From a virus, in the IMG/VR virus record IMGVR_UViG_3300009506_000080, positions 1-41,484 of that record: a stretch of DNA of 41,484 nucleotides. One strand, given 5' to 3'. A model generated the notes under the pieces. It saw only the letters and a program-made list of their open reading frames with translations. It had not been told where the DNA came from and ran no database searches. Of the stretch, positions 905 through 19,979 are shown piece after piece. Position numbers and translations under genes: made by a program. The first letter of the stretch is position 1. Every line of letters begins with the position of its first letter.

Positions 905-938
905 TACTTTCTCTCCTTTCGATGGGTGATGGGGCGGA

Positions 939-1169: not shown

Positions 1170-1213
1170 GATACCTCCTCTCGATGGGTGATGGGGCGGG
1201 GGTTAGAGATTGG

Positions 1214-1552: not shown

Positions 1553-1589
1553 GGTTCCTCTCCTCTCAACTAGGTGATGGGGTCAGGCG

Positions 1590-1814
1590 TTACCGATCGT
1601 GGCCGTCGTACCACGAGATCAGATCGTGGTCGACGATGTCACTGAGGCTCGCATCCATCCATCGCTTCGCCATAAACAACCACAATCGGATCCCTCCATG
1701 AGTGGTACGCAACAGCCACAGTGGCTTGCCGGCCACGTAGCCAGGCTGCGCTGTGATGACGGGGATGAGTTTGTCCGGCACCACCACGTCGTGACCACGT
1801 ATGATGACATTCAT
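1590..1814 (-). CDS. Small hypothetical protein (74 aa)
   Basis: This small beta-type protein opens MNVIIRGHDVVVPDKLIPV and ends with an acidic Trp/Tyr tail (DLISWYDGHDR). No known motif is visible. The ATG at 1814 is chosen because the duplicated leader cassette (GAGAGGAGAGCATCGATC) lies directly upstream. The longer frame to 1895 lacks a ribosome site. Confidence 0.65.
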   Translation of the reverse strand: MNVIIRGHDVVVPDKLIPVITAQPGYVAGKPLWLLRTTHGGIRLWLFMAKRWMDASLSDIVDHDLISWYDGHDR

Positions 1815-1846
1815 GATCGATGCTCTCCTCTCGATGGGGTTAGCGG
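1811..1846 (-). repeat. Duplicated gene leader cassette, copy 2
   Basis: It is identical to 560-596 apart from one base and carries the same ribosome site and start-codon arrangement. Confidence 0.8.
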
Positions 1847-2037
1847 GCATCGCTCGCGTGCTCGGCGCGCTCGAGGCTTTTGAGACAGTGGGCATGGAGT
1901 ATGCGGAGGACTCGACGCGCTACCTGTGCGTCGGAGTGCATCTGCTCGAACCCGCACCATGGGCAGATAGCGTAGTTGAGGCCGCGTGAGTAGATCACCT
2001 CGATACGTGGCTCGCGCGTCTGGTTGTTGGTAGGCAT
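1840..2037 (-). CDS. Small C/H-rich putative zinc-binding protein (65 aa)
   Basis: The protein has a CPWCGF knuckle near residue 25 and an HAHC cluster about 20 residues later, a spacing that could form a single CCHH/CCHC zinc site. An Arg-rich helix lies between them (AQVARRVLRILHAHC). The ATG at 2037 follows GAAAGGAGAGATC; upstream codons in the same frame lie in the previous leader. No function can be assigned. Several neighbours in this unit are also small metal-binding-type proteins. Confidence 0.65.
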   Translation of the reverse strand: MPTNNQTREPRIEVIYSRGLNYAICPWCGFEQMHSDAQVARRVLRILHAHCLKSLERAEHASDAR

Positions 2038-2065
2038 GATCTCTCCTTTCGACTGGGCGATGGGG

Positions 2066-2179
2066 TCAGGCGTTATGGATGCCTGGAAATCGATACGGAT
2101 CAAGTCGACACTGACACCAGCCGGACAATGCGGCAGTGGGGTTGGGCAGATCTACCTCACCATGCCCATTTTGACCCAC
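2066..2179 (-). CDS. Possible very small gene (37 aa)
   Basis: A GTG at 2179 opens a 37-codon frame that overlaps the end of the preceding gene by 28 bp and fills the otherwise empty stretch before the next leader. It contains a CQC pair (GWCQCRLDPYRFP). The only upstream ribosome site is a weak GAGG. It could be a chance frame. Confidence 0.3.
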   Translation of the reverse strand: MGQNGHGEVDLPNPTAALSGWCQCRLDPYRFPGIHNA

Positions 2180-2364
2180 ACGGTAATCCTCGCCATGGCG
2201 AGCCGATCGAGCGCGCCAGAGCTCATCCCGGCGTGCCCGACACCGCCACAGTCGGTCCACCAAGTGCATCCCACCGGGCGCGCATAGGCGTGCCAATCCC
2301 TGTCACCGTCGCGGAAGCACCGTCTGCCATCGTATCCCTTCGGAGCCTTGATTATGACATCCAT
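2152..2364 (-). CDS. Small hypothetical protein (70 aa)
   Basis: The ATG at 2364 has GGAGGAAAAGAG directly upstream. The protein opens MDVIIKAPKGYDGRRCFRDG and has a Trp/Cys-rich middle (VGCTWWTDCGGVG). No domain is recognised. It is the second gene from the start of the leftward small-gene unit. Confidence 0.6.
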   Translation of the reverse strand: MDVIIKAPKGYDGRRCFRDGDRDWHAYARPVGCTWWTDCGGVGHAGMSSGALDRLAMARITVWVKMGMVR

Positions 2365-2417
2365 CTCTTTTCCTCCGCCCCGTGGGCCCCATTGCCCGAC
2401 AGGGAATATTATCCTCC

Positions 2418-2702
2418 TCAAAGCCACACGATCCGGTATTTGCCAAACCGAACCCGGCCAGTTCTCTTGAGCCTGGCCATTTTCCGCCCATCGGCGGCAT
2501 CGGCTATGGCGTAGCAGACATAACGCCATGCCGACCTGATCGATGGGCACTCGGCAGTGTCGATCAGACGGCCATGATGGTAGATCTTGAGATGTTGCGG
2601 CCGGCGGTCCGGACGTGCGTCATACGGCACGTGTCTCGCATGGCCCAACACCGGCACCAACGCATCGGTGGCCATGATCGACGGGGCGGATGGTTCCCGC
2701 AT
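2418..2702 (-). CDS. First gene of the leftward small-gene unit, hypothetical (94 aa)
   Basis: The ATG at 2702 follows ACAGGAGGATACC, a strong ribosome site, and no gene lies upstream on this strand for about 1.6 kb. The protein is basic; its C-terminal half (LIDTAECPSIRSAWRYVCYA, then KRTGRVRFGKYRIVW) looks like a small alpha/beta fold. No motif is recognised. As the leader gene of an early-type unit next to the operator cluster, it is likely expressed early; that is inference from position. Confidence 0.65.
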   Translation of the reverse strand: MREPSAPSIMATDALVPVLGHARHVPYDARPDRRPQHLKIYHHGRLIDTAECPSIRSAWRYVCYAIADAADGRKMARLKRTGRVRFGKYRIVWL

Positions 2703-2908
2703 GGTATCCTCCTGTCCCGTGATAGTGTCTCCCGCGCATAAGCTGCGGGTGATCGCGTGAGATCAATCAGATTGTCACAGATCGATTGCGCGGCATCTGT
2801 CAGCCGCCGTCCCTCGCGGACGTGACACCATAGTGCAATCGACAGTCCACACGGTGAGGAAAAATGTAGATATCATCTAACCCGTTGACTGTTAGTATGT
2901 TATGACAT

Positions 2909-2925
2909 TGAGACAATAAGTCTCA
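2909..2925. promoter_or_regulatory. Operator-like 17-bp dyad, copy 1 (perfect)
   Basis: TGAGACAATAAGTCTCA is a perfect inverted repeat with 6-bp arms and a 5-bp AT spacer. It is the best of four related sites in the divergent region. The size and symmetry fit a dimeric helix-turn-helix repressor. The XRE-type protein at 9711-10022 is the only regulator seen and could be the ligand (inference). Confidence 0.6.
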
Positions 2926-2944
2926 CACACCAAACCAGCCTGAT

Positions 2945-2961
2945 TGAGACAATATGTCCGA
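2945..2961. promoter_or_regulatory. Operator-like 17-bp dyad, copy 2
   Basis: TGAGACAATATGTCCGA keeps the left half-site and spacer of copy 1, with a degenerate right half. Its centre is 36 bp from that of copy 1, so both could be bound from similar faces of the helix. Confidence 0.5.
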
Positions 2962-3016
2962 GTGATATTTCCCGTTGTCCGCACAATATTCCACAGTTTG
3001 TGAAGATGTATAGAGA

Positions 3017-3038
3017 TCAATCCGTCCATCCGGATTGA
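3017..3038. repeat. Inverted repeat (8-bp stem, 6-nt loop)
   Basis: TCAATCCG and CGGATTGA are perfect arms around TCCATC. No T-run follows, so it is not an obvious terminator. It may be a protein-binding site or structural element of the control region. Confidence 0.55.
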
Positions 3039-3056
3039 CGGATGCATGGTACAACC

Positions 3057-3072
3057 TTGACGTGGACGTCAA
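3057..3072. promoter_or_regulatory. 16-bp palindrome TTGACGTGGACGTCAA
   Basis: Perfect 7-bp arms (TTGACGT/ACGTCAA) flank a 2-bp centre. It differs in sequence from the 17-bp dyads and may bind a different dimeric protein. Confidence 0.45.
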
Positions 3073-3247
3073 AGTCGGCTAGCGTCACATAAGGCCGTCG
3101 AGGACCGCTTTGTCCGAGATGCCACGCAGAACAGCTAAAATCCCGCCTATAATCGACGTAAACCTCTCCCACGGTGTACCACCACCACCAACGACTAGAG
3201 TCCCTTAGATGACAACGTCGGGCCTGTAGCGACGTCCACCCTTGAGG

Positions 3248-3264
3248 TGGGACTTATTGTCCCG
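3248..3264. promoter_or_regulatory. Operator-like 17-bp dyad, copy 3 (inverted orientation)
   Basis: TGGGACTTATTGTCCCG has the same 6-5-6 architecture as copy 1, with the reverse-complement spacer TTATT and a compensating A-to-G/T-to-C pair change in both arms. Paired changes that keep the symmetry support a real binding site. Confidence 0.5.
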
Positions 3265-3593
3265 TTGCAAGTGGCAGAAATCCCCTATCCGGAATCCAAA
3301 TGCCTATCTGTACAATCTGTACAACATGGATGATTTCGCTGACATAGGAAACGATGGGCGGTGGGGGGCCCACCCTCCCCAAAAGTGTGCAGAATCGGCA
3401 CACTTTCCCAAATGTTCGGGTCCTACCCTGAAATCGCCGACCAGGAGCTCCACCCCATGACGGCCCATCCCCTACCTGGAGCCCCCTACCCATCGGCATC
3501 CCATGCCAGATCATCCCCACGGTGCTGGACCTCCTACCCCTCCAGGCCACGATCGCACCACCACAGCCATGCCCAGGCCCATCATCATCACAT

Positions 3594-3610
3594 TGAGACA
3601 ATATGCCCCA
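3594..3610. promoter_or_regulatory. Operator-like 17-bp dyad, copy 4
   Basis: TGAGACAATATGCCCCA matches copy 2 over the left 12 bases, with a weaker right half. It lies inside the pyrimidine-rich section. Confidence 0.4.
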
Positions 3611-3626
3611 CCTATCCACCTACCTA

Positions 3627-3642
3627 TGGATATACATATCCA
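3627..3642. repeat. Palindrome TGGATATACATATCCA
   Basis: Perfect 7-bp arms flank a 2-bp centre. It is AT-rich within an otherwise C-rich tract, so it could be an unwinding or binding site. Function is unknown. Confidence 0.4.
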
Positions 3643-3738
3643 GTGGGACAACATCACATATGCCACGGGCCAATCCATATCACCATGCCACTATCCACCA
3701 TGATCGATGGAACGATCCACGCCACCACTATGGGGATG

Positions 3739-3858
3739 CCTTCCCCTCTTCCTCCTCACCATATCCCCAAGTCTATGTCTCATCCTCTCCCTCATCCTAT
3801 CCCTAATCCTCTCCCTCTCCCTCCTTCTAAGTCTACATCTTCATCTCAATCTCCATGT
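3739..3858. repeat. Pyrimidine-rich low-complexity tract
   Basis: The plus strand here is almost free of G and contains repeated CTCATCCTCTCCCT-like units. All three forward frames give low-complexity Leu/Ser or Pro/Ser runs, which argues against coding. Such strand asymmetry can favour triplex or unwound DNA; it is also a common feature of phage control regions. Confidence 0.6.
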
Positions 3859-3870
3859 TTGGCTATGGTC

Positions 3871-3965
3871 TTGGCTGAGCGTTAGCGAAGCCTCTTCTCT
3901 TGGCTTTGGGCTTAGGATATTGGCGTAGCGCAGCGGAGCCTCTTGGGTTGAGCGAAGCGAGACCC
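3871..3965 (+). repeat. Three tandem hairpin-forming repeats
   Basis: Units at 3873-3892, 3922-3940 and 3945-3965 share the plan GGC-or-GGGT, GAGCG-like core, AGCGA-like core, then GCC-or-ACCC. Units 1 and 2 are followed by TCTT and unit 3 by CCTCT. Each can fold on itself: unit 1 as GGCT-GA-GC-GTTA-GC-GA-AGCC, with tandem G-A mismatches and a four-base loop. They look like structured RNA modules or protein-binding DNA elements. Confidence 0.6.
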
Positions 3966-3980
3966 CCTCTCCAGGGATAG

Positions 3981-4003
3981 GCTGCGCGCCGCTTGAGCGC
4001 AGC
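3981..4003 (+). repeat. 7-bp perfect stem-loop after the tandem repeats
   Basis: GCTGCGC and GCGCAGC pair around a 9-nt loop that contains GCTTGA. It directly follows the three tandem hairpins and shares their GAGCG core. No T-run follows, so it is not an obvious intrinsic terminator. Confidence 0.55.
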
Positions 4004-4073
4004 TTGTCATGTACCAGGTAACATATAGGTAGGATGTATGGGGTAGGAGCGCGCGCGCGAGGAGGTGGCCCTC

Positions 4074-4226
4074 ATGGTCCAGTGGGGGGCGATGGTATAT
4101 TTGGCCGGCCTGTTCAAGCAAAAGAATAATCTTTGTCATGTTTTACAACTCAGGTTGGTGTTTGGACCTAAGTTGGTGTGGGGGGTTGAGTTGGGTCCCA
4201 TATGGGACTGCAAAAAAATTTTCTAG
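4074..4226 (+). CDS. Possible small gene (50 aa)
   Basis: An ATG at 4074 follows GAGGAGGTGGCCCTC, a very good ribosome site at normal spacing, and opens a 50-codon frame ending at a TAG at 4224-4226. The product is hydrophobic and Trp/Leu rich (MVQWGAMVYLAGLF at the start). It has no known motif. The frame runs through G/T-rich repeats and the palindrome at 4195-4208, so it may be chance coding over regulatory DNA. Confidence 0.3.
   Translation: MVQWGAMVYLAGLFKQKNNLCHVLQLRLVFGPKLVWGVELGPIWDCKKIF
4195..4208. promoter_or_regulatory. 14-bp perfect palindrome GTCCCATATGGGAC
   Basis: The palindrome lies 120 bp upstream of the first rightward gene. Its GTCCC/GGGAC arms are those of dyad copy 3 (GGGAC...GTCCC) in reversed order. 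It may be a control site for the rightward unit. Confidence 0.45.
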
Positions 4227-4327
4227 GAAAGGTTTTGAGTCTGGTTGAGGGGTTGGTAGGGTGTCTTTAGCTACTGTTCAACAAAGACCCCTAGAAATGC
4301 CTCTTGTGGGAGGCAGAGGAGGGCAAG

Positions 4328-5059
4328 ATGAACGATTGTTCAGATAAGCAGACTGAGGAGGATGTGGCAACTCAGTACTTCACAACTGGGTGTGTCGATG
4401 CAAGGGATGACATCGAGGGGTTGAAGATTAGGGTCATGGGGATCAGGCGGATGTTTCATGCAACTCATAAGTTTCCTGAGATGGCAGACGCGCCTGAGAT
4501 GATTGCCAATGTTGTGTTGGCTTACCGGCATCTCGAGGATGCTCGGATGAGGTTCGGGAAGGCGATCCAGGCGTGCAATGGTGGTGTGAGTATCTACGAC
4601 TCCACCGAACAAGGTGCCGATGTCAAGAAATCCCTTCAACAACAGTCCAATAATGCTCTGGAGATGATGAGATTTGTCACTAAGAAAGGGCGTGATAGGC
4701 TCATGAAGGCTGGTTACGTTGAAGTGGTGGTGAGAGCCATTCTCGCGATCATCTTGGACAAAGACGTAGAGCAGATCGACGAATGGCTCGACAGCGAGGG
4801 TGGCGTGAGTTGCTACGACAAGAAGCCGAAGATGGTTTCTGCCGCTGGCACAATCTATGCACCAGAGTTCTTCGAGACAATCGAGGATGGTACATACTGG
4901 ATGTTGGTTTGGAAAACGCGCAGGTGGGAGCTGCTGGAGTTGAAAGATGGGCGCGGATCATTGATTGGTTCGGGCATGCCGATATCCATGGAGGAGATGA
5001 AGATAGAGATTGGAATGATTGTCGGTCCGATCCCGGTCCCATCCGGGACAATAATGTAG
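4328..5059 (+). CDS. Two-domain accessory protein; N-terminal Acb2/Tad1-like helical part (tentative)
   Basis: First gene of the rightward unit (243 aa). ATG 4328 has GAGGAGGG five bases upstream; the TTG at 4304 has none. Residues about 25-85 are helical and contain HLEDARMRFGKAIQ plus GGVSIYD, a signature I associate with small phage proteins. Its helix pair resembles the Acb2/Tad1 hairpin, which sequesters cyclic nucleotide signals of CBASS and Thoeris defence. That link is tentative. The last 60 residues (EDGTYWMLVWKTRRWELLEL, then EIGMIVGPIPVP) match a small beta domain of the form G-x-Y-W...W...IG...P, also common in phage accessory proteins. The middle is of unknown nature. Position in an accessory block next to a control region fits an anti-defence or host-takeover role, but this is inference. 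Confidence 0.55.
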   Translation: MNDCSDKQTEEDVATQYFTTGCVDARDDIEGLKIRVMGIRRMFHATHKFPEMADAPEMIANVVLAYRHLEDARMRFGKAIQACNGGVSIYDSTEQGADVKKSLQQQSNNALEMMRFVTKKGRDRLMKAGYVEVVVRAILAIILDKDVEQIDEWLDSEGGVSCYDKKPKMVSAAGTIYAPEFFETIEDGTYWMLVWKTRRWELLELKDGRGSLIGSGMPISMEEMKIEIGMIVGPIPVPSGTIM

Positions 5060-5080
5060 GCAATCAAGGGCTGAGAACAA

Positions 5081-5392
5081 GTGAGTACTAAGGTTTGCCA
5101 CGTTCCATGGTGGGCTGTCTGGATCACCCAGGACAAGGATGGCAGGGTCTTTGTCTGGGACTCTGAGCCTGTCTGTGTGGGGCCGTGCTGGATCGGAAAG
5201 CCAAGGGTGAACAGGAGGGGCATGATTCCCAAGACGTCCATTCCTGGGGAACACGGCTCTCCCAGGTATGTTTTCGTGGCATGGGGCAGAGAAAATCTAC
5301 AGTGGCCTGAGTTTATCCGAGAGCTTACTGATGAGGAGAGGACAAGAGAAGAAGTCATTGTCAGGGTAGACAGCTGCATCCAAGCAGCTTGA
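5081..5392 (+). CDS. Trp-rich small protein family, tandem copy 1 (103 aa)
   Basis: It opens with VPWWAVWITQDKDGRVFVW and continues to a W-PEF-I-REL-T-EER segment. The genes at 5439 and 5772 share the plan (V/I)P-x-W-A-x-W/Y-(I/V)-(S/T)-QD-x-(D/N)-G-x-(I/V)-x-(V/A)-W, then a basic (R/K)-(K/E)-L-T helix. These are paralogues by tandem duplication. A shorter, divergent relative is encoded at 40352-40594. The GTG at 5081 follows a TGA in the same frame and has only a weak AAGGG upstream. Function is unknown; the aromatic strand-rich N-terminus suggests a small beta domain. Confidence 0.65.
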   Translation: MSTKVCHVPWWAVWITQDKDGRVFVWDSEPVCVGPCWIGKPRVNRRGMIPKTSIPGEHGSPRYVFVAWGRENLQWPEFIRELTDEERTREEVIVRVDSCIQAA

Positions 5393-5438
5393 GGAGAGCA
5401 ACGATGCCTGACACCGACAAGGCGAGTGAGGATGAGTG

Positions 5439-5702
5439 ATGACGAGAGTAAGAGGAATGAAGAAGACCGTGCCGATACCGCACTGGGCAAGATACATCAG
5501 CCAGGACCCTAATGGTGATATCTACGTCTGGAGCGAGAAGCCGGACAAGTGGGACGAATGGCTGTCAGACTTCGTTAACTTCCGATTCATTGCCCACGGG
5601 AACCCAAATCCGCAGTGGAAGAAATACTGCCGCAAGCTCACCTATGCCGAACGGACAGCCTGCAAGGTTCTGATCCGCATCCGCAAGAAGGAGAAGCCAT
5701 GA
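5439..5702 (+). CDS. Trp-rich small protein family, tandem copy 2 (87 aa)
   Basis: The protein contains IPHWARYISQDPNGDIYVW and ends WKKYCRKLTYAERTACKVLI, matching copies 1 and 3 at both ends. The ATG at 5439 has GAGG seven bases upstream. An 11-codon frame (5404-5439) with its own GAGGAG site ends on the same base as TGATG and may be a leader peptide. At the 3' end, an ATG overlapping the stop (5699) opens an 18-codon frame that I do not count as a gene. Confidence 0.65.
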   Translation: MTRVRGMKKTVPIPHWARYISQDPNGDIYVWSEKPDKWDEWLSDFVNFRFIAHGNPNPQWKKYCRKLTYAERTACKVLIRIRKKEKP

Positions 5703-5771: not shown

Positions 5772-6053
5772 ATGAGTATCACAACAGTGTATATCCCATG
5801 TTGGGCTCGGTGGGTTACTCAAGACAGAGATGGAACAATCAAAGCCTGGGGAAAAAAACCTATCCAATCATTGCCGGGTGTTTCTCGAGGAATGATTTGG
5901 GATCCAGACTATTTGGGAACTCCAATCCCTCACCCAAGAATAGAAATAGGTATTGGCAACCCAAATGATGATTGGAAGAAATACATTCGCAAGTTGACTC
6001 TAAAAGAAATCAGAACAGGCAAGGTTAGAATCAAGGTAAGGAATAACAATTGA
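5772..6053 (+). CDS. Trp-rich small protein family, tandem copy 3 (93 aa)
   Basis: The start ATG follows GGGGAGGAAAAC, a strong ribosome site. It carries IPCWARWVTQDRDGTIKAW and ends WKKYIRKLTLKEIRTGKVRI, very close to copy 2. The third copy is clearly more A/T-rich at silent positions than copies 1 and 2, and this bias continues into the next gene. That suggests this copy arrived with the glycosidase-like gene or has a different history from its siblings. Confidence 0.7.
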   Translation: MSITTVYIPCWARWVTQDRDGTIKAWGKKPIQSLPGVSRGMIWDPDYLGTPIPHPRIEIGIGNPNDDWKKYIRKLTLKEIRTGKVRIKVRNNN

Positions 6054-6166
6054 TCAAACCAATGCCGGAGGCTTCGGTGTGGAACGTAAACTTCCCGAGG
6101 AGGCTAGTCGGACACCACGGATCTTGCCTCATCGAGGCCTTCGGCTTTTTACTTGGAGATATCTAC

Positions 6167-9100
6167 ATGAAGCGTATCCTTGTGCTCCTTCTCCTGGGCT
6201 TTCTGGCAAACGTGGCCACCAGCCAGGTTCCAAAACCAAGTGATGACCCGATCCATTTTCCTAGGTTGTTCCGACAGTCACAGATGCCGGAAGGAAGGAA
6301 TGCAACAAGTCACTCTCAAGGAACGAGGCTTGAGTGGAATTCGAAATATGATGTTGTCATCATGCGTCCATCGTTTGCAAACGGGTTTATTGATGAGCTG
6401 AAAGTAATGAACCCAAATATCAGGGTTCTGGCTAGTCTCGGGTACTTTTGCAAGTATGAGAGTGGTATTTGGAATTGTGACAGTGATTATGTTCTCAGGT
6501 ATGCCGATGGATCGAAGGTCAAGATTCAGAATAATCCAGAAGCTTATGCTCCGGACATGTTCTGGAACAAAGGGGGCGTTCTTGGGAATGCTTACTTTGC
6601 CTCCTGGATGATCGCCAATATGGATCTGGTCAGTAATGACTGGGATGGCTTCGGATCGGATGATCTGTCGGTCAGCGGAATAGTCCAGGGTGATGTAACA
6701 GTAGATATCAATCAAGTGGACTACGATCGGAATGGATATCCTGATGTAGACAATGATAATGATGGTGACACTTATAGTGATGGGTTTGAAATTGAGGCGT
6801 ATGCCGATGGTGGAACGGCTGGGGTATCAAAATTCACAACAACAGGAAGTTTTGTTTCACAGGGATATGTTGATTACTCTGGCAACAATCTGGTTGCGCA
6901 TATTACTGTCTACGGGTTCTACAACTGGAAAACAAATGGGAGATGGACCATTGATGGTACAAAGACTCATACTGCAAATACTCTCTATGTCATAGATGCC
7001 GGCGATGTCATCATAGACGATCCTTACAATGGTGTGGATCAACAGTGTTATGCAGATGACAGTGATAATGGTGCAACGCCAACTAGCGATGGGGGGGAAG
7101 ATTGGAATCCAGTAAAGAATCAAACGGCCGCCTGGGCTTCCTGGCTTGAGGAAACAAGAACTGCGTATGTTGCTGCAACTTCCAACGAACCACTCGAATA
7201 CTGGAATCCTGGGAGTCCGATCGATCAGGCAAGATCTGATGGTGGAGCCATCTTGATGGAGGCCGAAGATCAGATTTTTGGTGGATCTCTAGCCGCACTT
7301 TACAAGCACGCTCACTATTGGGTCAACAATGATTGGGCCGATGAAGATTCCAAGTGGTTTTGCATCACTACAGAGACATGGAAACAAGCCTATGATACGC
7401 CATTCCATCCAGAGTGGCGACACGATAAGAGAGCCCAATCGAATTTGAAGCTGCTACGCGCCATGTTGGCAACGTGTTGTGTTGCAGGTGCATTCTATGA
7501 CCCTGACTATAACTACTTCCATGAAGGAGGAATTTGGCTGGATGAGCTTGAGACGGATCTTGGGTACTACACCACAAAACCATACGTGATCGACAAGGGA
7601 TTCGGTGCCCATTGGTATGCTGGTGTTGATCCTACTCCTGATGTTCCGACTGGAACAGGTGCTTCAGGAGGTGACTTTGTTGTCAGGTTTTTCGACAACG
7701 GCGTTGTCATTGTCTACATGGGATCCGAAGTTGGGGTAGATTCGGCAAAGCTAACTGACCAGGATCTCCAAGATGCTTGGACTGCCGTTGGTGGTGGCGG
7801 GCCGTATCCAGGTCCATACTACTCTTTCTTAGGCGGACAAGATCCAGAGTGGAACAATGGGCGAGAGTTCACGTCACGAGTGTTTCACGGATATTTCGGG
7901 TCGAACAGAGATGGTAACTCAAGACAGAACAACTCAGCAATATCCTATGGGGATGGATTGATTCTCTACACCACCAGGAAGATTGTTGTCTCCAGCATTG
8001 TTGTCGGGAACGATGATATTCAGGAAACAAGCCCGATGAGTCCAGGGCCTCTATATACCGGATCGTGGACGAATAAGGCAGATATCCAAGACAATGATGA
8101 CAATTGGGATGATAATCCCTACTGGACACAAGGGCCTGTTTATAACACTGAAGTCAACGGTGTCTGGTACTACGGCTACAAGACGGCAGAACCGACAAGC
8201 CATTCATCGGTCGTCTATTCGCCATCAATCGGGGTATCTGGGTATTATGGCGTCTACGAGTGGCATGGCTGGGAAGGGGAATATGAGAGCACGTCGAATG
8301 AAGCAACAAATGCTCCGTATAAAGTTTTCACAGGCCCGAAGAAGGGTCCGTTGACGCTAGTTCTCAGCGGTACGATTGACGATAGAAATGCTACCAAGCA
8401 AGGACAATGGAACTATCTGGGCATGATTCATGCCGACGCTGGAGATCAGGTCAACATTGTTCTCTACAGTTATGGGGCTGATGAGACAGTGATTGCTGAT
8501 GCCTTCAAACTCGAATACAGCGGTCAGTTCAGACCAACAGCCGCCGGTGGTGGGTATGCTCCGGCCTATACAGGCACCGGATCCAGAAAGATTGCTGTCT
8601 TGACGTCTGACTACATGGATTCTTCTGGGATTCCGTGGCTCCATCTTACGACTGGAGGAATGGTTCTCATCCTTGGGTCATACATCGATCAGACAGACTT
8701 GATGACAATCGAATACAAGTTGGATTGGGATGATGGTGGTCAACAAACTACCGGCTGGATGGATCTCTTTGGAACGAGTTGGTTCACAGCGTCAGATGGA
8801 AGACCTTCCTTCTACAACACGGGGAATGCCGTGGATGAAACAAGGATTGGTATCGAACGTCTTGATGATGATTCGGCTATCACGAGATCTGAGTTTTACA
8901 TTCTTGGGTTTGACCCAAAATGGGGTCTATGGGAAGCGGGCATCAAGAACAAGTATGCATGGTGTCCAGGGTACTACGCAGGTGAAGCCGGGTCCTGTGA
9001 CTCTTTGACCAAGTTCGGAGAGTACTGGGTGTCGTCTACAAGCGAGGCTCTAGCGCCATTTCGTTGGTGGGCTGATTCAGACACAGATTGGATAAACCCA

Positions 9101-9202
9101 GGCAACGTTGTTGGCGATGGAATCAACGAATACTTCGTCTCTTTCAAGATCTCTGAGCCAAATGGCGAGACCGGGGTTGCAACCATGAGGGTCTTCAAGT
9201 GA
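6167..9202 (+). CDS. Exported glycoside-hydrolase-like protein with golvesin/Xly-type carbohydrate-binding domain (1011 aa)
   Basis: The ATG at 6167 (GGAG upstream) begins a clear Sec signal peptide: MKRI, a Leu-rich core, then VATSQ as likely cleavage region. Residues about 55-175 look like the start of a TIM-barrel glycosidase of the hypothetical GHL type (YDVVIMRPSF, WDGFGSDD near 160). A block at about 186-208 has repeated D-x-D-x-N/D-G motifs (DRNGYPDVDNDNDGD), typical calcium-binding loops. Residues 380-475 look like the rest of the barrel (AGAFYDPDYNYF, WLDELETDLGY). Residues about 630-790 match the golvesin/xanthan-lyase CBD-like domain (YYGVYEW, ATNAPYKVF, WNYLG, IADAFKLEY). A beta domain ends the protein. 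A phage gene with a signal peptide is unusual; it may attack or remodel surface glycans from outside the membrane. The gene is AT-richer than the virion genes. The upstream in-frame extension to 6050 lacks a ribosome site. Confidence 0.75.
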   Translation: MKRILVLLLLGFLANVATSQVPKPSDDPIHFPRLFRQSQMPEGRNATSHSQGTRLEWNSKYDVVIMRPSFANGFIDELKVMNPNIRVLASLGYFCKYESGIWNCDSDYVLRYADGSKVKIQNNPEAYAPDMFWNKGGVLGNAYFASWMIANMDLVSNDWDGFGSDDLSVSGIVQGDVTVDINQVDYDRNGYPDVDNDNDGDTYSDGFEIEAYADGGTAGVSKFTTTGSFVSQGYVDYSGNNLVAHITVYGFYNWKTNGRWTIDGTKTHTANTLYVIDAGDVIIDDPYNGVDQQCYADDSDNGATPTSDGGEDWNPVKNQTAAWASWLEETRTAYVAATSNEPLEYWNPGSPIDQARSDGGAILMEAEDQIFGGSLAALYKHAHYWVNNDWADEDSKWFCITTETWKQAYDTPFHPEWRHDKRAQSNLKLLRAMLATCCVAGAFYDPDYNYFHEGGIWLDELETDLGYYTTKPYVIDKGFGAHWYAGVDPTPDVPTGTGASGGDFVVRFFDNGVVIVYMGSEVGVDSAKLTDQDLQDAWTAVGGGGPYPGPYYSFLGGQDPEWNNGREFTSRVFHGYFGSNRDGNSRQNNSAISYGDGLILYTTRKIVVSSIVVGNDDIQETSPMSPGPLYTGSWTNKADIQDNDDNWDDNPYWTQGPVYNTEVNGVWYYGYKTAEPTSHSSVVYSPSIGVSGYYGVYEWHGWEGEYESTSNEATNAPYKVFTGPKKGPLTLVLSGTIDDRNATKQGQWNYLGMIHADAGDQVNIVLYSYGADETVIADAFKLEYSGQFRPTAAGGGYAPAYTGTGSRKIAVLTSDYMDSSGIPWLHLTTGGMVLILGSYIDQTDLMTIEYKLDWDDGGQQTTGWMDLFGTSWFTASDGRPSFYNTGNAVDETRIGIERLDDDSAITRSEFYILGFDPKWGLWEAGIKNKYAWCPGYYAGEAGSCDSLTKFGEYWVSSTSEALAPFRWWADSDTDWINPGNVVGDGINEYFVSFKISEPNGETGVATMRVFK

Positions 9203-9736: not shown

Positions 9737-10022
9737 ACTGAACATCAACTTCTCGGTGATCATCAAGGCACTCCGAGAAGAAGCTGGGTTGAAACAATCC
9801 GAGGCAGCCAAGAAGGCCGGGATCAATCCGTCTTATCTTTGTCTCATTGAGACAGAGAAATGTGGCATCCCCTCAGAGCCCGTTCTTCAGTGCTTGGCCA
9901 AGGTCCTTGATGTGGATGGAGATTGGCTTTGCCTTGTGTCCGGGAGATGTCCTGATGACTTCATGCGGCGTTTTCTGAAGGATCCAAAGAAAGCCTGTGA
10001 GGTTGTCAGAGAATGTCTGTAA
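9711..10022 (+). CDS. XRE/Cro-CI family helix-turn-helix regulator (103 aa)
   Basis: Residues about 14-70 form an HTH_3 domain: IKALREEAGLKQSEAAKKAG is helix 1 to helix 2, followed by INPSYLCLIE as the recognition helix segment and a G-x-P-S-x-x-x-L-x-x-L-A-K-V-L end. The tail is short and has no peptidase or oligomerisation domain that I recognise. The start at 9711 has GGAGAGG upstream. It lies between the small and large terminase genes, an odd place for a repressor, and would be expressed with the late genes. The 17-bp dyads in the divergent region are plausible targets (inference). Confidence 0.85.
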   Translation: MTGRKVASELNINFSVIIKALREEAGLKQSEAAKKAGINPSYLCLIETEKCGIPSEPVLQCLAKVLDVDGDWLCLVSGRCPDDFMRRFLKDPKKACEVVRECL

Positions 10023-10687
10023 AGGACTTGGCAAGCCTTTCTGAGAGACTCCAACGATTGGCCTGGAAGGAAGCCAGGAAGGATCCATGTGTCTTTCTCA
10101 GGACATTCGTGAAGACCCTGGACGAGCATGACGCCATCACTCCTGTCAAGCGATTCCCCTATCTGCCCGTGTTTGAGCATCTCACGGCCAAGTGGCGAGA
10201 TCTTCTTCCAGGACAGCACCTCATCATCGCCAAGTCCAGACAACTCATGGCATCCTGGTGGGCCATTGCCATGGTTCTCCACGAATTGATGTCGAAGCCT
10301 GGCCGGCTCGTCGGGGTAGTTTCCAAAAAGGAGAGTGATGCGGCCAAGCTCATCGGGGAGACCAGGATGGGCGTGATTGCGAGAAACCTGCCATATTGGT
10401 TGCAAGAGTCCTATCCGATCGAGGAAACCAAGACGGCTGTTACTGTACGCCATGGAAGACGGGACCCGCCATCAGTATGCCTGGCAATGCCCCAGGGAGC
10501 CCACCAGGCCCGAATGCACACGTTCTCCATGCTGTTCTTCGATGAGGCTGCTTTTCAGGATGCTCTCGAAGATGCCATCGTAGGGGCTAAGCCTACGCTC
10601 CATGGAGGTGGGAGGCTCCTGGTGGTTTCATCGGCATCTCCTGGTACGTTCGAGGATATATGGCGAGGTAAGTGGGGTGGTCAGTAG
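10013..10687 (+). CDS. terL: Large terminase, N-terminal ATPase half (224 aa, split gene)
   Basis: This is the packaging motor ATPase domain. Visible motifs are the adenine/Walker A-like segment AKSRQLMASWW (residues 73-83), Walker B with catalytic Glu in MLFFDEAAF (DE at 177-178) and the coupling motif SSASPGTFE (206-214). A whole TerL is usually 450-600 residues; here the frame stops at 10687 soon after the coupling motif. The missing nuclease domain is in the same reading phase at 12641-13636, after three unrelated genes. The product may work as a two-polypeptide enzyme, or the halves may be rejoined by splicing; no intron signature was recognised. Starts at ATG 10013, overlapping the previous gene by 10 bp. 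Confidence 0.85.
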   Translation: MSVKDLASLSERLQRLAWKEARKDPCVFLRTFVKTLDEHDAITPVKRFPYLPVFEHLTAKWRDLLPGQHLIIAKSRQLMASWWAIAMVLHELMSKPGRLVGVVSKKESDAAKLIGETRMGVIARNLPYWLQESYPIEETKTAVTVRHGRRDPPSVCLAMPQGAHQARMHTFSMLFFDEAAFQDALEDAIVGAKPTLHGGGRLLVVSSASPGTFEDIWRGKWGGQ

Positions 10688-10928
10688 AGCGCGAAGGAAG
10701 CACCGAAAGCATGTGTACCGTATCCAGCCATGTTCCGTCTGTGGAGAAACTGTGGCAGCTCATCTCAACAGGGAAGAGATGTCCTGGTATCAGTACGATA
10801 AGGTTGGACGATCGTATACCAAACACAAACACCACATCGAATATATCGATCCATGGGAATTTGAGAAGCTGATGAAGCCGTATGTTGTGGTTCCGAAGTG
10901 GGTTGTTGATGGGAGGAAACGGAGATGA
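10677..10928 (+). CDS. Small Cys/His zinc-finger-like protein inside the split terL (83 aa)
   Basis: The GTG at 10677 has GAGG eight bases upstream and overlaps the end of the terL ATPase half by 11 bp. The protein is basic at the N-terminus (RARRKHRKHVYR), then has CSVCGE and, 25 residues on, KHKHHIEYIDP, a pattern that could bind zinc. It faintly recalls HNH endonucleases (C-x-x-C...H-H-I), but the later N/H of the HNH core is not evident. A homing-nuclease relic would explain the split gene; a plain zinc-binding protein is equally possible. Confidence 0.55.
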   Translation: MVSRARRKHRKHVYRIQPCSVCGETVAAHLNREEMSWYQYDKVGRSYTKHKHHIEYIDPWEFEKLMKPYVVVPKWVVDGRKRR

Positions 10929-11761
10929 ATACCGAGCTGATTCTTGAAGGGGATGACCTTCTCAGGGCCTGCTGGTTTCAAGATCCAAAGAAGAACTACT
11001 CAGAAGCAGAACATGTCTTTTTGGAAAGTGCCGAGAAAATCAAAAATGCCATGAGAGATGCTGGTGCAAAAATTCTCTCCGAGATGCCGAAAGACATGTT
11101 CAAAGAAAAACCAGTAAGGATTGTTGGTTCTGGTCCGACACATTCAGAAACAACCAGCATTTATGAATATGTTGAATCGGTTATAGGATGCAACGCGGCC
11201 CCGATGGAAAATCCTTCGCGTTATCACTATGGAGTAACCGGTGATCCTTCGATGTCTTTGGCAATCCTGAAAGATACGAGTCTCAGCGTGCCGTATTTCT
11301 TTAGAATGGATGAAGTCAGGACTGAAGAGGCTGTGAAGGCCATAAAGAGGATCAGGAGAAGAAGAAAGTACGTGACTCCTATCCTGGTAGACGAGCCTCT
11401 CGATTCTGTTCAGATAACGATGCACAATGGAGATCAATTTATTTCGAAGGCAAGAATGACAGGCACTGTGGCCATTATTGTTGCATGCTACTTTTCGTCT
11501 CCGATTATCACTCTTTCAGGTATCGATTATGTACCGTACTCGTCCACAAAGATGAGTCGGTATGATGTTACTCCATGGTATACTCCTCCTCCGACGCAAG
11601 ATGAAAATACGGTCATGTTCCGTGGGTATGAGATACCTGCCCATTGGGAGATTGAAGTCCATACTACGGAGTATCTAGCCAAGCTCTACTACAACATGGG
11701 TCTTGGATCAATCATGCTGGCTAAGAGGGCTGGTGTTCTCAATCTGCCTTCATGGAGATAG
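10925..11761 (+). CDS. Rossmann-type protein resembling GT42 sialyltransferases / MptE-like (DUF115) proteins (278 aa)
   Basis: Residues about 64-75 read VRIVGSGPTHSE, the N-terminal glycine-rich motif of GT42 and MptE-like families. Residues about 177-205 read MTGTVAIIVACYF then ITLSGIDYVPYSS, matching the S-G-x-x-A...L-S-G-I-D-(F/Y) block of these enzymes. GT42 members transfer sialic acid from CMP-sialic acid; MptE-like proteins are often linked to surface sugar pathways. Which reaction applies is not clear. It overlaps its neighbour by 4 bp (ATGA), and the GT-B gene follows at once, so the two likely act together on a glycan. It is AT-richer than the flanking terL halves, supporting transfer. 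Confidence 0.5.
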   Translation: MNTELILEGDDLLRACWFQDPKKNYSEAEHVFLESAEKIKNAMRDAGAKILSEMPKDMFKEKPVRIVGSGPTHSETTSIYEYVESVIGCNAAPMENPSRYHYGVTGDPSMSLAILKDTSLSVPYFFRMDEVRTEEAVKAIKRIRRRRKYVTPILVDEPLDSVQITMHNGDQFISKARMTGTVAIIVACYFSSPIITLSGIDYVPYSSTKMSRYDVTPWYTPPPTQDENTVMFRGYEIPAHWEIEVHTTEYLAKLYYNMGLGSIMLAKRAGVLNLPSWR

Positions 11762-11763
11762 AC

Positions 11764-12759
11764 ATGAAAGTTATCAATCTTGCCATCACCCCCTGTGCCG
11801 GGTCTCCAATCGATCTCAGCTCGGCTATCAATGATTATCTTGATGGATGGGAGTCAGAGCTGTACCAAGAAAAGGTCGCGTACAACGATGGGAGAGTCTT
11901 TGAAGGTGACATCAAACCATTGGATAGAGAAAATGTATGGGGCCAGATCAAAGATGCAGATGCCTTCATTCTTCACAATAATGGACCATGCCCACCGTGG
12001 GGTATGGGGTTCCAGGAACAATTACTTCCAGACGATAATCGTCCGAAGATCTGGGTGATTCATTCCCCCTACTACTGGTGGGATGCCACTTCATGGGGAA
12101 GGATGAAAAACGTTAGTCTTGTTACTTGGTGTGGTCTTCATTCCATTCTCTGGAAACGGAGCATGGCAATCCCTATCAATGCAATGCCGCAGATAATTAG
12201 GTGGGAAAAATATCTGGCAAAAGATCGAGATCGAGAAGGGCTTCCTGTTATTGTGTTTGCACCATCAACGAAGAGATGGCAAGATCCTTTCCATACCAAG
12301 GGATTTCCGATTGTTGATCGGCACCTGAAACAGCTAGAGGTTGACGGAAAGATTGACTACCATCTCGTTCACGGGAGAAGTCATCTTGAATGTTTGGAAG
12401 CAATATCTAAGGCTGATATCTGTATCGATGACATCATCACCGGAGAATACCATAGAGTCTTCCTCGAGTCCTGCGCCAGTGGGGTCATGGCAGTCACTGG
12501 CATGACGTCTGAAGTGAAGTCTACCATGGCAAGATGTATTGGATGCCAGATGGATGAGATCCCAGGAATCAGGCTCAACCCAAGGTCGTTCATCAACTGC
12601 TTTGAGTCGATCGTAAAAGACCGAGAAATGACGAGGAAGTATGGACAGCAAGGACGCCGATTTATTGAAGAGCATTGGCATCCAGCCAAGATCATCGAGC
12701 GATTCGTCCGGCCCCTCCTTGAGCGATCTGGGAAAGTCTGTCAAGCACGAGTACCATGA
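11764..12759 (+). CDS. GT-B type glycosyltransferase inside the split terL (331 aa)
   Basis: The ATG at 11764 has GGAG six bases upstream. The N-terminal half is a Rossmann-like acceptor domain (MKVINLAITPCAGSP, then a DADAFILHNNGPCP segment). The C-terminal half carries IVFAPSTKRWQDPF, HTKGF, then YHLVHGRSHLECLEAISKAD and a Glu-containing EYHRVFLESCASGVMAVTG. The last is the donor-site E-x-x-x-G/A-x-x-x-G pattern of GT4-like enzymes. The C-terminus reads on into the 5' edge of the terL nuclease half (overlap 12641-12759), so its natural tail may be altered. Its substrate is unknown; candidates are a virion protein, DNA base or host surface glycan. Confidence 0.75.
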   Translation: MKVINLAITPCAGSPIDLSSAINDYLDGWESELYQEKVAYNDGRVFEGDIKPLDRENVWGQIKDADAFILHNNGPCPPWGMGFQEQLLPDDNRPKIWVIHSPYYWWDATSWGRMKNVSLVTWCGLHSILWKRSMAIPINAMPQIIRWEKYLAKDRDREGLPVIVFAPSTKRWQDPFHTKGFPIVDRHLKQLEVDGKIDYHLVHGRSHLECLEAISKADICIDDIITGEYHRVFLESCASGVMAVTGMTSEVKSTMARCIGCQMDEIPGIRLNPRSFINCFESIVKDREMTRKYGQQGRRFIEEHWHPAKIIERFVRPLLERSGKVCQARVP

Positions 12760-13636
12760 CGTACCTGGATACTGGGAAGAAGAATTTCCGAACGGATGGG
12801 TTTCCGTCTGGTACCACTACTCATCACACCCGGATAAGAGATCTCCTGAGTGGAAGGCTGAGATGTCCAAAGGCTACCCTGGAGGAGTCAATGGCTCCCC
12901 ATGGATGGCCGAGATGGAGATCGACTTCGGGGCTAGGTCTGGGTCCCTTGTCTGTCCCTCCTGGAGACGTGAAGTACATCTGGTCAAGCCGTTCGATCTG
13001 AATCCTGACTGGCCTCGCTATAGGGCTATCGATCCAGGTCTTCACAACCCCTTTGCCTGCCTGTGGGGATGCCTCAGCCCGGACAAGATTCTCTACCTCT
13101 ACCGAGAGCACTACAAGGCTGGTTGGACCATCAGCCAGCACGCTCAGTACATCCGAGGAGCTACTGGGAGGGAAAGGATAGACTGGACCGTTATCGACCC
13201 TTCTGCCACGGCCAGAACCCTTGCATCACCCCGTTCAATTAGTGATCAACTAGCAGAACAAGGAATCATCTGTGTCCCTGGGGACAATCGCATCGAGGAT
13301 GGCCTGGAAGCCATCAATGAGTGGCTTCTGGTCAAAGACGTGGGTCTTCCCAATGTCCTCGTTTTCGACAATCTCCATCACTTCATCAGCGAGATTGAGG
13401 GCTATCGGTTTGAGATCCAGACCCCCGAACAGGCAGCCCACCGGGACCCCAGGGAAATTCCCATAAAGAAAAATGACCATCTCATGGACGCATTTAGGTA
13501 TATGATTATGTCTATGCCCGAGTATTCCAAGACGGCAAGGATGATCGGGATCAAGAAGCTGAGCCACGTCGATCGAGCCATGAGGCAGATCAAGAGGACG
13601 AGAGGCCCAGAAGATGACGACGACCTTTCAAACTAG
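12641..13636 (+). CDS. terL: Large terminase, C-terminal nuclease half (split gene)
   Basis: The RNase H-like nuclease domain that cuts concatemers: RAIDPGLHNPFACLWG (Asp near residue 131 from 12641), TVIDPSA (Asp 186) and KKNDHLMDAFRYM (Asp 279 and 283) supply the acidic residues. Family-like terL sequence starts only at about 12735 (VKHEYHDVPGYW); codons before that lie over the glycosyltransferase gene. The true start could be ATG 12641 (GAGG four bases upstream) or TTG 12719 (no site). The phase is the same as the ATPase half, so removal of the intervening DNA could restore one frame. Confidence 0.85.
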   Translation: MDSKDADLLKSIGIQPRSSSDSSGPSLSDLGKSVKHEYHDVPGYWEEEFPNGWVSVWYHYSSHPDKRSPEWKAEMSKGYPGGVNGSPWMAEMEIDFGARSGSLVCPSWRREVHLVKPFDLNPDWPRYRAIDPGLHNPFACLWGCLSPDKILYLYREHYKAGWTISQHAQYIRGATGRERIDWTVIDPSATARTLASPRSISDQLAEQGIICVPGDNRIEDGLEAINEWLLVKDVGLPNVLVFDNLHHFISEIEGYRFEIQTPEQAAHRDPREIPIKKNDHLMDAFRYMIMSMPEYSKTARMIGIKKLSHVDRAMRQIKRTRGPEDDDDLSN

Positions 13637-16913: not shown

Positions 16914-19037
16914 ATGCCTGTCACTCCGACAGTCGTTGTTGAGAAGAACAAGCAGAAGCGGCAGCTCAAGCGGTCGTCATACCAGCCATCCAGGGATGAC
17001 ATTGCAGCGACTACCTTCATCGATGAGAGGATTGTTCCGGCTCTTGCTTCTGCCAGAGCTTACCATAAGCAATGGTTCATCTCGGCTGCCTTCTTGGCTG
17101 GGTATCAGTTCCATAAGTGGTCAGACTATTATGGTGGTTTGATCTACGCTTCCAATGTCCCTCGCTGGAGAGTCCGTCAGCCTTTCAATAAGATCATCGA
17201 GTATGTCGAGACCAGACAGAGTACCCTCATGTCCTTCATGCCTGAGATGAGAGTCAGGCCCAAGAGGAATGATGAGGACAGCATCAGATCTGCCATGCTA
17301 GGGGACAACCTTCTCAAGTCAGCCTGGGAAGAGCAGAACATGGATGAGATCCAACATGATTTCATCCGGTATCTAGTTACCCTTGGGAATGGGTTTCTCA
17401 AGGTTACCTGGGATGCTGACGCTGGAGAAACAGTCAAGATCCCCATGGGTGATCCAAGGACTGGAGAACAAGCTTATGACAAAGACTATAATCCAGTCTT
17501 CATTGAGGCTTCAGAAGGCAACATAAGAACAGAGGTGATCTCTCCTCACAACATCATCTTACCGGAAGTCCCAAGATGGGGAGATGTGACCTGGATCGGT
17601 CAACAAACAGAGAGACCTCTGTCATGGGTTGGAATCAACTATCCGATGATCTACGACTACATCGGAGAGGCCGATCTCAATCATGGCTATGCGGATGACA
17701 AGTACGAACGAAGCCTGATGAACCTCGTTGGACCATCGGGTTACAAGTTTGGTATCCAGGAATCTGATGAGGGAACCGTCACTGTCACGGAATTCTGGTC
17801 TTTGCCTGATGGAGATCCGGACTTCCCCAATGGTCGAAAGATTGTCAGGATTGGCAGTGTCATCGCGGAGAATGATGAGAATCCATATGGAGATATTCCG
17901 TATGTCCATGTGGCTGATATTCTCATTCCTGGTAGAATTCTGGGTCAGGGCATACCTGAGCATCTCATACCGGAGCAGAAGGTCCTCAACCGGGTGATCG
18001 GGAAGTTTGTTGAGTGTCTCATTCTTCACGGTCAGCCGAAGATGACTGTTCCAACATTGGCGGGTATTCCAGACAGCGCATTGACATCAGAACCGGATGA
18101 AAGACTGGAATATCACGGACCTACTCCTCCTGCCTACATGAACCCACCACCTTTTGCCCAGGAAGCGTACAACTGGGCTCTCATGAGGACGATGGAGGCA
18201 ATGGACCACACGTCCATATCGTTCTCAGCTTCTCGAGGAATGGCTCAACAGAGCATGTCGGGTATTGCCTTGGCCCAGATCATTGAGCGTGACGTTCAGG
18301 ACATGACACCGGTCAGCAAGCGTCTGGCCAATGGTTACAAGCGGTGGGGATCGCTGGTTCTGAGACGATATGAGCAGTTTGTTGGCACGCAGAGGCTCAT
18401 GCGTTGGATGGGTCCGAACAAGAGGTGGGAGGTTCAAGCCTGGACTGGGGCCGATATCGATGGTCACCATGATGTCTATGTGGATCCTTCATCGGCTGTA
18501 CCGAAGAACAAGGCCCTGGCTCTGACCTGGGTCAAGGAACTTGTGGCTTCTGGGATCAAGAACCCCATGGATCCACAGGACCGCGCCTGGATCCATAAGT
18601 TCCTTCAGATCGAAGATACTACCCTCGACCAGGATATGGGTGAGGTTGATGAGCGTTTGGCCAGACAGGAAAACCAGGCCCTCCAGAACGGCTTTCCTGT
18701 GAGGCCGGCACTCTGGCACGAGAATCACAACATGCACATCGGCATTCATCGTACGGCGATGCAGACGGACTCCTTCAGGGACAATCCGATGATTCTCCAG
18801 ATGGCAGAGCAACATCTGCAGTCGCACTACATGTATTTGATGCCGATGATGGGCCAAGGTTCACCTCAGTACGAGAAGCCTGGCCAAGGAGGAAAACGAC
18901 AGGACCGATCTGTCAAACCAGGAGAAAGCAACCCATCAGGCGCAGTTCCAGGGGCCGCCCCGGCTCCAGGACCTGTTGGTCCTATGCCCACGGGGCCAGG
19001 TGCTTCGATGGATATGTTTTTGGGCGCAAACGAATAG
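16914..19037 (+). CDS. Portal protein (707 aa)
   Basis: The portal is the dodecameric head vertex channel through which DNA is packed and ejected. Length, position (after terminase, before scaffold and capsid) and sequence support it: an aromatic and basic N-terminal region (NVPRWRVRQPFNKIIEYVET), the segment RRNDEDS-like with EEQNMDEIQHDFIRYLVTLG, NGFLKVTWD, IPYVHVADILIPGRILGQG and a long helical part with FSASRGMAQQSMSG. The C-terminus is Pro/Gly-rich (PGAAPAPGPVGPMP), typical of a disordered tail. The start has GAGAGGTAAGT upstream. It looks like podovirus-type portals with a long C-terminal barrel helix. Confidence 0.85.
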   Translation: MPVTPTVVVEKNKQKRQLKRSSYQPSRDDIAATTFIDERIVPALASARAYHKQWFISAAFLAGYQFHKWSDYYGGLIYASNVPRWRVRQPFNKIIEYVETRQSTLMSFMPEMRVRPKRNDEDSIRSAMLGDNLLKSAWEEQNMDEIQHDFIRYLVTLGNGFLKVTWDADAGETVKIPMGDPRTGEQAYDKDYNPVFIEASEGNIRTEVISPHNIILPEVPRWGDVTWIGQQTERPLSWVGINYPMIYDYIGEADLNHGYADDKYERSLMNLVGPSGYKFGIQESDEGTVTVTEFWSLPDGDPDFPNGRKIVRIGSVIAENDENPYGDIPYVHVADILIPGRILGQGIPEHLIPEQKVLNRVIGKFVECLILHGQPKMTVPTLAGIPDSALTSEPDERLEYHGPTPPAYMNPPPFAQEAYNWALMRTMEAMDHTSISFSASRGMAQQSMSGIALAQIIERDVQDMTPVSKRLANGYKRWGSLVLRRYEQFVGTQRLMRWMGPNKRWEVQAWTGADIDGHHDVYVDPSSAVPKNKALALTWVKELVASGIKNPMDPQDRAWIHKFLQIEDTTLDQDMGEVDERLARQENQALQNGFPVRPALWHENHNMHIGIHRTAMQTDSFRDNPMILQMAEQHLQSHYMYLMPMMGQGSPQYEKPGQGGKRQDRSVKPGESNPSGAVPGAAPAPGPVGPMPTGPGASMDMFLGANE

Positions 19038-19093
19038 GGACCAACCGGAAGGAGTCCCTGATTTCTTGGACCAACCCGAAAGGAGTGTCTGAT
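19038..19093 (+). repeat. Duplicated ribosome-site region before the scaffold gene
   Basis: Two imperfect copies of GGACCAAC-C-GAA-GGAGT-x-CTGAT lie at 19038-19062 and 19068-19093. The second copy provides the ribosome site and ends at the start of the scaffold gene. The first has an equally good AGGAGT and CTGAT but is followed by TTC, not a gene. A local duplication is the likely origin; doubled sites could enhance ribosome loading on an abundantly made protein. Confidence 0.75.
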
Positions 19094-19979
19094 GGCCAGA
19101 AACCCAAAGATCGTTGCAGAGGAGAACGAGAAGATTGCTGCCTTGGAGGCTGTAGAGGCCGGTGAAGCTGATGAAATTGACGAGGAGGAGTCCGAAGAGG
19201 AGCCGACCACCCAGGTAGACGAGCCTGAAAAGGCGAACGTCTTCGGAGTCGAGCTGACCAAACAGGACTTTGATGAGCTCGTCAAGGCCAGAGATAACCT
19301 CAATGGCATGGTTGCGGCGCATACCCGGAGAAGCCAAGAGCTTGCCGACGATCGCCGTGCCCTTGAGCGAGAGCGGTCTGAGATCCAGGAGAGACTACGT
19401 GAAGTTGATCACATCAGGGAGATTGCCAAAGCCGGTGGGCCGGAAGCTGTTTCAGCATACCTTTCCGGCGAGGAACTTCCCGATGAGGTCAAACTCACAA
19501 CCGACCTGAAAGATATCCGGCAGCGACTTGACAGGCTCGATGAACGAGAGAGCGCCAAGTCTCAGAGTGATGCTATCGCCGAGGTAAGGCACTTCGTGAG
19601 AAGCCTTGTCAATGGTGAGAAGATCTTCAATGGAACGGAAGACTTTGTAACTTCCGAGGTTCAGGGGATCTTGTTCACCCTTCCAAACTCCGAAGTAAAC
19701 GAGACAAACTGGAGAGAAAAGGCCAAGGAAATCGTCTCGAAGAAGGCTGAGATCCAGGAGAAGATCATTCGGGATCGGCTGGATGAAATTATTGGCAAGA
19801 CGAACAAAGGACGGAAAGCGACAGTTCCACCATCCTCTGGTGCCCCGGCTCCAAGACCAAAGCCAAAGGGTGAGGTCAAACATCACTGGGTCAAGGGCAT
19901 GGAAAACAAGGAAGTTGACTTCGGTGCCTACGAAATGAAGGCTGAGAAGTGGCTTAGAGAGGTTGGTGGCCTGCCGTAA
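19092..19979 (+). CDS. Capsid scaffolding protein (295 aa)
   Basis: It lies directly between portal and capsid genes. The N-terminus is very acidic (EIDEEESEEEPTTQVDEPEK), followed by a long coiled coil (RRSQELADDRRALERERSEI) and a Pro/Lys-rich C-terminal segment (PAPRPKPKGEVKHHWVKGM) that would contact the capsid. This make-up and location are standard for internal scaffolds, which shape the procapsid and leave. No protease domain is visible. The start has AAAGGAG upstream. Confidence 0.75.
   Translation: MARNPKIVAEENEKIAALEAVEAGEADEIDEEESEEEPTTQVDEPEKANVFGVELTKQDFDELVKARDNLNGMVAAHTRRSQELADDRRALERERSEIQERLREVDHIREIAKAGGPEAVSAYLSGEELPDEVKLTTDLKDIRQRLDRLDERESAKSQSDAIAEVRHFVRSLVNGEKIFNGTEDFVTSEVQGILFTLPNSEVNETNWREKAKEIVSKKAEIQEKIIRDRLDEIIGKTNKGRKATVPPSSGAPAPRPKPKGEVKHHWVKGMENKEVDFGAYEMKAEKWLREVGGLP

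Follow-up and report, generated by a model that had tools for sequence, protein, structure and literature searches.

A large terminase gene divided at a single site in an uncultured bacterial virus and its relatives

Interruptions of the large terminase gene (terL) are known from several phage groups. These interruptions are group I introns or inteins. Introns occur in terL of Jug phages, where metatranscriptomes revealed splicing (PMC12363816), and in that of Bastillevirinae (PMC11878797), terL of Campylobacter phage IBB_35 contains an intein plus an intron (PMC3322345), and cyanophage Mic1 provides a further case (PMC7156551). When the open-access literature was searched for a two-cistron large terminase (subscription literature being outside the search), only such intron and intein cases were found. 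The DNA analyzed here, hereafter the window, is the complete 41,484-base stretch of a virus record from an uncultured bacterial virus. Similar to T4 gp17-type large terminases, its terL has all ATPase and nuclease motifs and lies upstream of portal and capsid genes, but it is divided into two proteins cut inside the ATPase domain, and its Walker A motif is deviant, with the lysine first (KSR). As in intron- and intein-bearing terL genes, some of which include an endonuclease, a conserved core gene is hit and found in pieces. Unlike these, however, no intron or intein was detected here, the pieces can overlap by 1–4 bases, the cargo between them is not a splicing element, and the protein is expected in two chains.

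Two further genomes encode terL as two coding sequences within other TerL families, namely Podoviridae sp. ct2G2228 (MW202785, positions 2923–4564 of locus L019), also cut right past motif C, and Podoviridae sp. ctLwi270 (MW202554, positions 17006–19543 of locus L014), cut before the nuclease domain. By eye, the N part of ctLwi270 terL looks intein-bearing, and its nuclease part is a separate gene located after a 62-aa ORF; this phage is a portal and capsid relative of the window with terL broken at a different place. The phages most closely related to the window by capsid and portal (Shocker, DS1, Casserole, and ctLwi270) were considered and set aside, as their TerL type and site differ from those of the window. 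Fragments of this kind have been clustered before, since PHROGs includes short, half-length “terminase large subunit” families (phrog_7579, phrog_5653, and phrog_10250), for which we found no description as halves of one two-gene terminase.

Two terL parts and an intervening cassette in the window

The terL region of the window includes five genes, all on the same strand:

10013..10687, + strand: terL-N, ATPase subdomain I, 224 aa (PHROG and family-profile matches)
10677..10928, + strand: basic 83-aa protein, zinc-finger-like (CxxC and His-rich stretch in the sequence; no family match)
10925..11761, + strand: 278-aa protein, no family match (Pfam, PHROG, NCBIfam, PDB sequences)
11764..12759, + strand: 331-aa GT-B-like putative glycosyltransferase (distant relative in phage LR756508)
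12641..13636, + strand: terL-C, last ATPase part and RNase H-like nuclease, 331 aa as called from ATG

The first of these matched TerL ATPase profiles (phrog_2, 5e-9; phrog_5989, 3e-8) and carries a deviant Walker A (KSRQLMASW), a Walker B (MLFFDE), and a motif C (SSASPG), 12 residues past which it ends at a TAG stop codon (10685–10687). The last matched TerL nuclease families (phrog_5653, 3e-13; phrog_2, 4e-10) and, under the cut-off, Pfam Terminase_3C (4.5e-4); it carries the subdomain II strand HYSSHPDKRSPEW and, when aligned to intact TerLs, the nuclease motifs AIDPG, VIDPS, and DHLMDAF with their conserved acids. In the same alignment, the two parts are complementary and jointly provide the full motif set with no obvious loss or duplication. 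On profiles built for the family, whose seeds include the window itself, terL-N covers positions 5–221 of 223 (E 6e-78) and terL-C positions 4–286 of 287 (E 4e-91). The two domains normally expected on one TerL chain are thus found in two ORFs located 2 kb apart, and the original prediction of a terL in two parts, with the ATPase part stopping at 10687 and a three-gene cassette before the nuclease part, was borne out by these TerL-profile matches. A split or contiguous intein was considered and rejected, as terL-N ends 12 aa past motif C and terL-C adds only a short leader, which leaves no room for one.

The true start of terL-C is uncertain: an ATG at 12641 is preceded by GAGG, with an alternative TTG at 12719, and both the ATG and the best Shine-Dalgarno (SD) sequence fall within the out-of-frame 3′ end of the glycosyltransferase-like gene. 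Homology is recognizable only from about 12750, while the ORF is open from 12641, so that the resumption first placed near 12735 holds for the homology and not for the ORF itself. Similarly, the two parts do share the same phase in the window as initially proposed, but this is uninformative given that the phase differs among relatives.

The cassette genes are tightly coupled, with ends overlapping or nearly abutting, and the first has a GTG start with an upstream SD (GAGGT), its first 11 bases still lying within terL-N. The insert is also AT-richer than the terL halves (GC of 0.465 vs 0.554 and 0.532), both features being as originally described. Promoter-like and terminator-like matches in this region were in no excess over shuffled sequences, and no tRNA was found in the window. 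The zinc-finger label of the 83-aa ORF is consistent with its CxxC and His-rich stretch, with no significant match to Pfam, PHROG, or NCBIfam in either its long or 83-aa form, and the ORF has neither an HNH motif nor an HNH family match. For the 278-aa protein, first labeled GT42/MptE, comparison with Pfam, PHROGs, NCBIfam, and PDB sequences gave no match to DUF115, MptE, or GT42, and a direct search of IMG/VR and phages yielded no relatives. For the 331-aa protein, the GT-B label is weakly supported: along 157 residues, it is 26% identical to a protein without annotation from phage LR756508 (two-sequence E 4e-17), and it gave a weak match to the WcaI family (E 0.22), with no match to a curated glycosyltransferase and no other relative in a direct search of IMG/VR and phages. 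AlphaFold models computed without an alignment were unusable (pLDDT of 34 for the 278-aa and 36 for the 331-aa protein). A glycan-related role of the 331-aa protein is supported indirectly, as its LR756508 relative is encoded near GT29 and GT25 genes, and the window cargo is probably concerned with host-surface or virion glycans. The surroundings of that relative (positions 294–5464 of locus L145) include genes for a GT29-type sialyltransferase, a GT25, and sulfotransferase-like proteins. Separately, the packaging genes of the window are directly preceded by a 1050-aa ORF (6050–9202) without Pfam match, which by eye resembles large carbohydrate-active proteins.

A shared split site among relatives

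Relatives of the window were collected using the joined sequences of the window and of L008, followed by profile-guided scans, yielding about 100 loci; a first genome scan with the joined query and a plasmid search returned no matches. L008 is a 75-kb contig, first found by a search with the N half, with terL cut at the same place as in the window. HMMs of the N and C parts were then run over all ORFs of these loci and, once repeated records were removed, both parts were identified on 74 contigs. terL lies in two ORFs in 37 of these, including the window, and the remaining 37 are relatives with both parts in one ORF, i.e. the intact counterparts that the original prediction had proposed looking for. 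All 37 splits fall in the same linker, just past ATPase motif C at the junction of ATPase subdomains I and II: split N parts end at N-profile position 217–222 of 223, plus 0–12 residues, and split C parts begin at C-profile position 2–8 of 287 (21 in one). The profile seeds (11 sequences for N and 15 for C) were mostly split members, so that profile ends are not independent of the seeds; most split members (27 or so) were found after seeding, and these obey the same site. Based on these sequence comparisons, breaks free to occur along some 500 codons would not coincide in this way by chance.

The distance between the two parts varies widely. They overlap by 4 bases (ATGA) in seven contigs and by 1 base (TAATG) in two, with other overlaps in several, while other split contigs include a gap of 0.1–0.5 kb with one or two small ORFs, and twelve, including the window, have long gaps of 1.3–4.2 kb with several genes. 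Five of the split contigs are from bacterial MAGs (L133–L137). Sequencing indels may account for some of the adjacent splits, but they would hardly all fall at a single site. For L059 and L070 (IMGVR_UViG_3300045970_000272, 50,884 bases), terL-N is near one contig end and terL-C near the other; the genome is probably circularly permuted, with the split region running across its ends. Among cultured matches to the family, the three inspected (Rollin, Hodr, and Mwe-JY08) encode terL as one ORF, and no cultured phage with a split terL was found.

Overlapping frames, observed in about 15 relatives, could also yield a single TerL chain through programmed frameshifting or stop read-through. We consider this exceedingly unlikely, as gaps reach 4 kb, and frameshifting is evidently not the rule given that the relative phase of the two ORFs varies among split relatives and that only one overlapping pair has a slippery heptamer. 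In the window, the frame past the TAG meets a TAA some 35–40 codons on, and this extension looks un-TerL-like by eye. Within terL-N of L008 itself, the frame changes at Walker B (6340–6380, at TTT CTT TGA C). The CTTTGAC string is identical to that of the RF2 +1 frameshift site, and a +1 shift at this point would yield a Walker B of normal length; a simple indel or sequencing error may equally account for the change.

Splicing, the other possibility initially raised, would instead require the 2 kb insert to be, or derive from, a group I or II intron with ORFs, yielding a full TerL after splicing. Although the published terL introns of Jug phages (PMC12363816), Bastillevirinae (PMC11878797), and Campylobacter phage IBB_35 (PMC3322345) provide precedents, and an HNH gene is found right after terL-N in L008, this scenario is quite improbable. 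No Rfam family was detected in the window, nor any conserved group I/II catalytic RNA core, and there was no intron match in the window insert (E up to 5), in L008 (E up to 1), in the ct2G2228 locus at lax thresholds, or across 12 loci at the gathering score. In addition, relatives with overlapping terL ORFs have no room for an intron, and the window insert is packed with overlapping genes, the first of which begins before the terL-N stop. A divergent or unfamiliar self-splicing element may still be involved in the long-gap cases. With 36 other contigs split at the same site, some with parts overlapping by 1–4 bases, the two-part terminase, which the original prediction had put forward alongside splicing, is the best reading of this locus.

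History of the split and cargo at the boundary

The distribution of split and fused terL was mapped on a tree built from 63 sequences after dereplication, of which 35 are split and 28 fused. The split/fused label requires about 11 changes on this tree, at least 7 of which cannot be avoided given the well-supported branches, and labels are more clustered than in shuffled data. The family has thus switched repeatedly between one and two cistrons at a single site, and a cut that keeps recurring at one position seems more likely to be a functional arrangement than a chance event.

Several genes were identified in or beside the gaps of split relatives:

L008 gap: HNH gene (phrog_2255, 4e-8) immediately 3′ of terL-N; HldE-type adenylyltransferase domain (TIGR02199, 1e-19, under its cut-off); FkbM methyltransferase (2.5e-16)
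L030 gap: FkbM methyltransferase and two-domain GT2
L117/L118 gap: cell-wall hydrolase and FkbM
L070: C5 cytosine methylase beside or after terL-N
L027, L030, L059, and L060 gaps: mutually related zinc-finger proteins

Upstream of terL-N in L008 (4567–5668) are genes for a cupin and for a protein similar to sugar kinases, by eye of the HldE kinase type; with this sugar-kinase-like gene upstream and the HldE-type gene downstream, ADP-heptose-type genes flank both sides of terL-N. Overall, sugar-related cargo is recurrent (L008, L030, L117/L118), yet it is neither universal nor the cause of the split.

The order of events can be approached through one group of the tree, in which L008 and L117, both with long gaps that include FkbM, have as their sister L144, a contig whose two cistrons overlap. 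The FkbM proteins of L008 and L117 are 37% identical and their TerLs 48% identical, and this grouping fits cargo arriving at a pre-existing boundary, as read from sequence relationships. The window itself is a long branch with weakly supported placement (92/83). There, we infer that the split came before the cargo: the cassette probably entered an existing cistron boundary, because relatives are split without any cassette. For the same reason, the glycosyltransferase cassette most likely did not make the split, as had first been supposed. Emphasis therefore shifts from the cassette to the fixed split site, the split being real, recurrent, and unusual.

The split may alternatively have originated with a free-standing homing endonuclease that broke terL at a conserved site and brought or attracted cargo, the one in the window having since decayed to the zinc-finger-like ORF. 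This concerns how the split arose and is compatible with a two-chain product. In L008, an HNH gene directly follows terL-N, and ct2G2228, cut past motif C in another TerL family, has between its terL parts a 46-aa ORF that by eye resembles the AP2-type tail of an HNH endonuclease. However, no homing endonuclease was identified in the other long gaps scanned (Pfam, PHROG) or in overlapping splits, and the zinc-finger-like ORF of the window does not resemble the HNH of L008, so that we regard this origin as rather unlikely.

A putative two-chain packaging motor

Nearly all of the split members examined retain the lysine-first Walker A (KSR......W), the Walker B, and the acidic residues of the nuclease, and, in relatives for which dS was computable, dN is far below dS in both terL halves, i.e. 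both are under purifying selection. This bears on whether the window, a single metagenomic contig, could represent a dead terL destroyed by insertion or two phages joined in assembly. Both are very unlikely, since all catalytic residues are retained, the same architecture is found across many independent metagenomes, both junctions consist of overlapping same-strand genes, and relatives show selection on both halves.

Profile comparisons indicate where the cut falls relative to solved structures. The N profile matched T4 gp17 (E 3e-17), on which it begins in the ATPase and ends some 20 residues beyond motif C, and the C profile matched the solved terminase nucleases 2wbn and 5oe8. In T4 gp17, the coupling motif (motif C) has been placed at the junction of NsubI and NsubII (PMC3012670). 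The cut thus leaves subdomain I on one protein and subdomain II with the nuclease on the other, so that a full ATPase is present in neither. Taken together, we propose, with a probability of roughly 0.8, that the large terminase of these phages would be made as two polypeptides, each encoded by its own cistron within a single operon, with a boundary that tolerates variable cargo.

Under this proposal, the terL-N protein would bring ATPase subdomain I with Walker A, Walker B, and motif C, and the terL-C protein would bring subdomain II and the nuclease. The two chains would be translated independently and, because neither holds a complete ATPase, would be expected to associate non-covalently as one motor subunit and package DNA. 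A cut in a variable linker right past motif C may come at little cost, and once terL forms two cistrons, their boundary would be an ordinary intergenic site at which cargo genes could be gained or lost. In the window, this cargo would be the genes for the zinc-finger-like, 278-aa, and GT-B-like proteins, which would have entered after the split.

More broadly, and with less confidence, we favor the view that these terminases may represent a widespread, unrecognized class of packaging motor, in which a non-covalent heterodimer split inside the ATPase toggles with a one-chain form at one hinge and its gene boundary serves as a late-operon cargo site. Tailed phages are recognized by TerL, which serves as a marker gene and is taken to be a single chain, and a two-gene terL would explain short “terminase” fragments that tend to be missed or called truncated in annotation. 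A motor in which nature has separated the ATPase engine from the transmission subdomain would also provide a probe of the coupling between ATP hydrolysis and DNA movement. Finally, the terL boundary may mark a place in the late operon for genes modifying the host or the virion.
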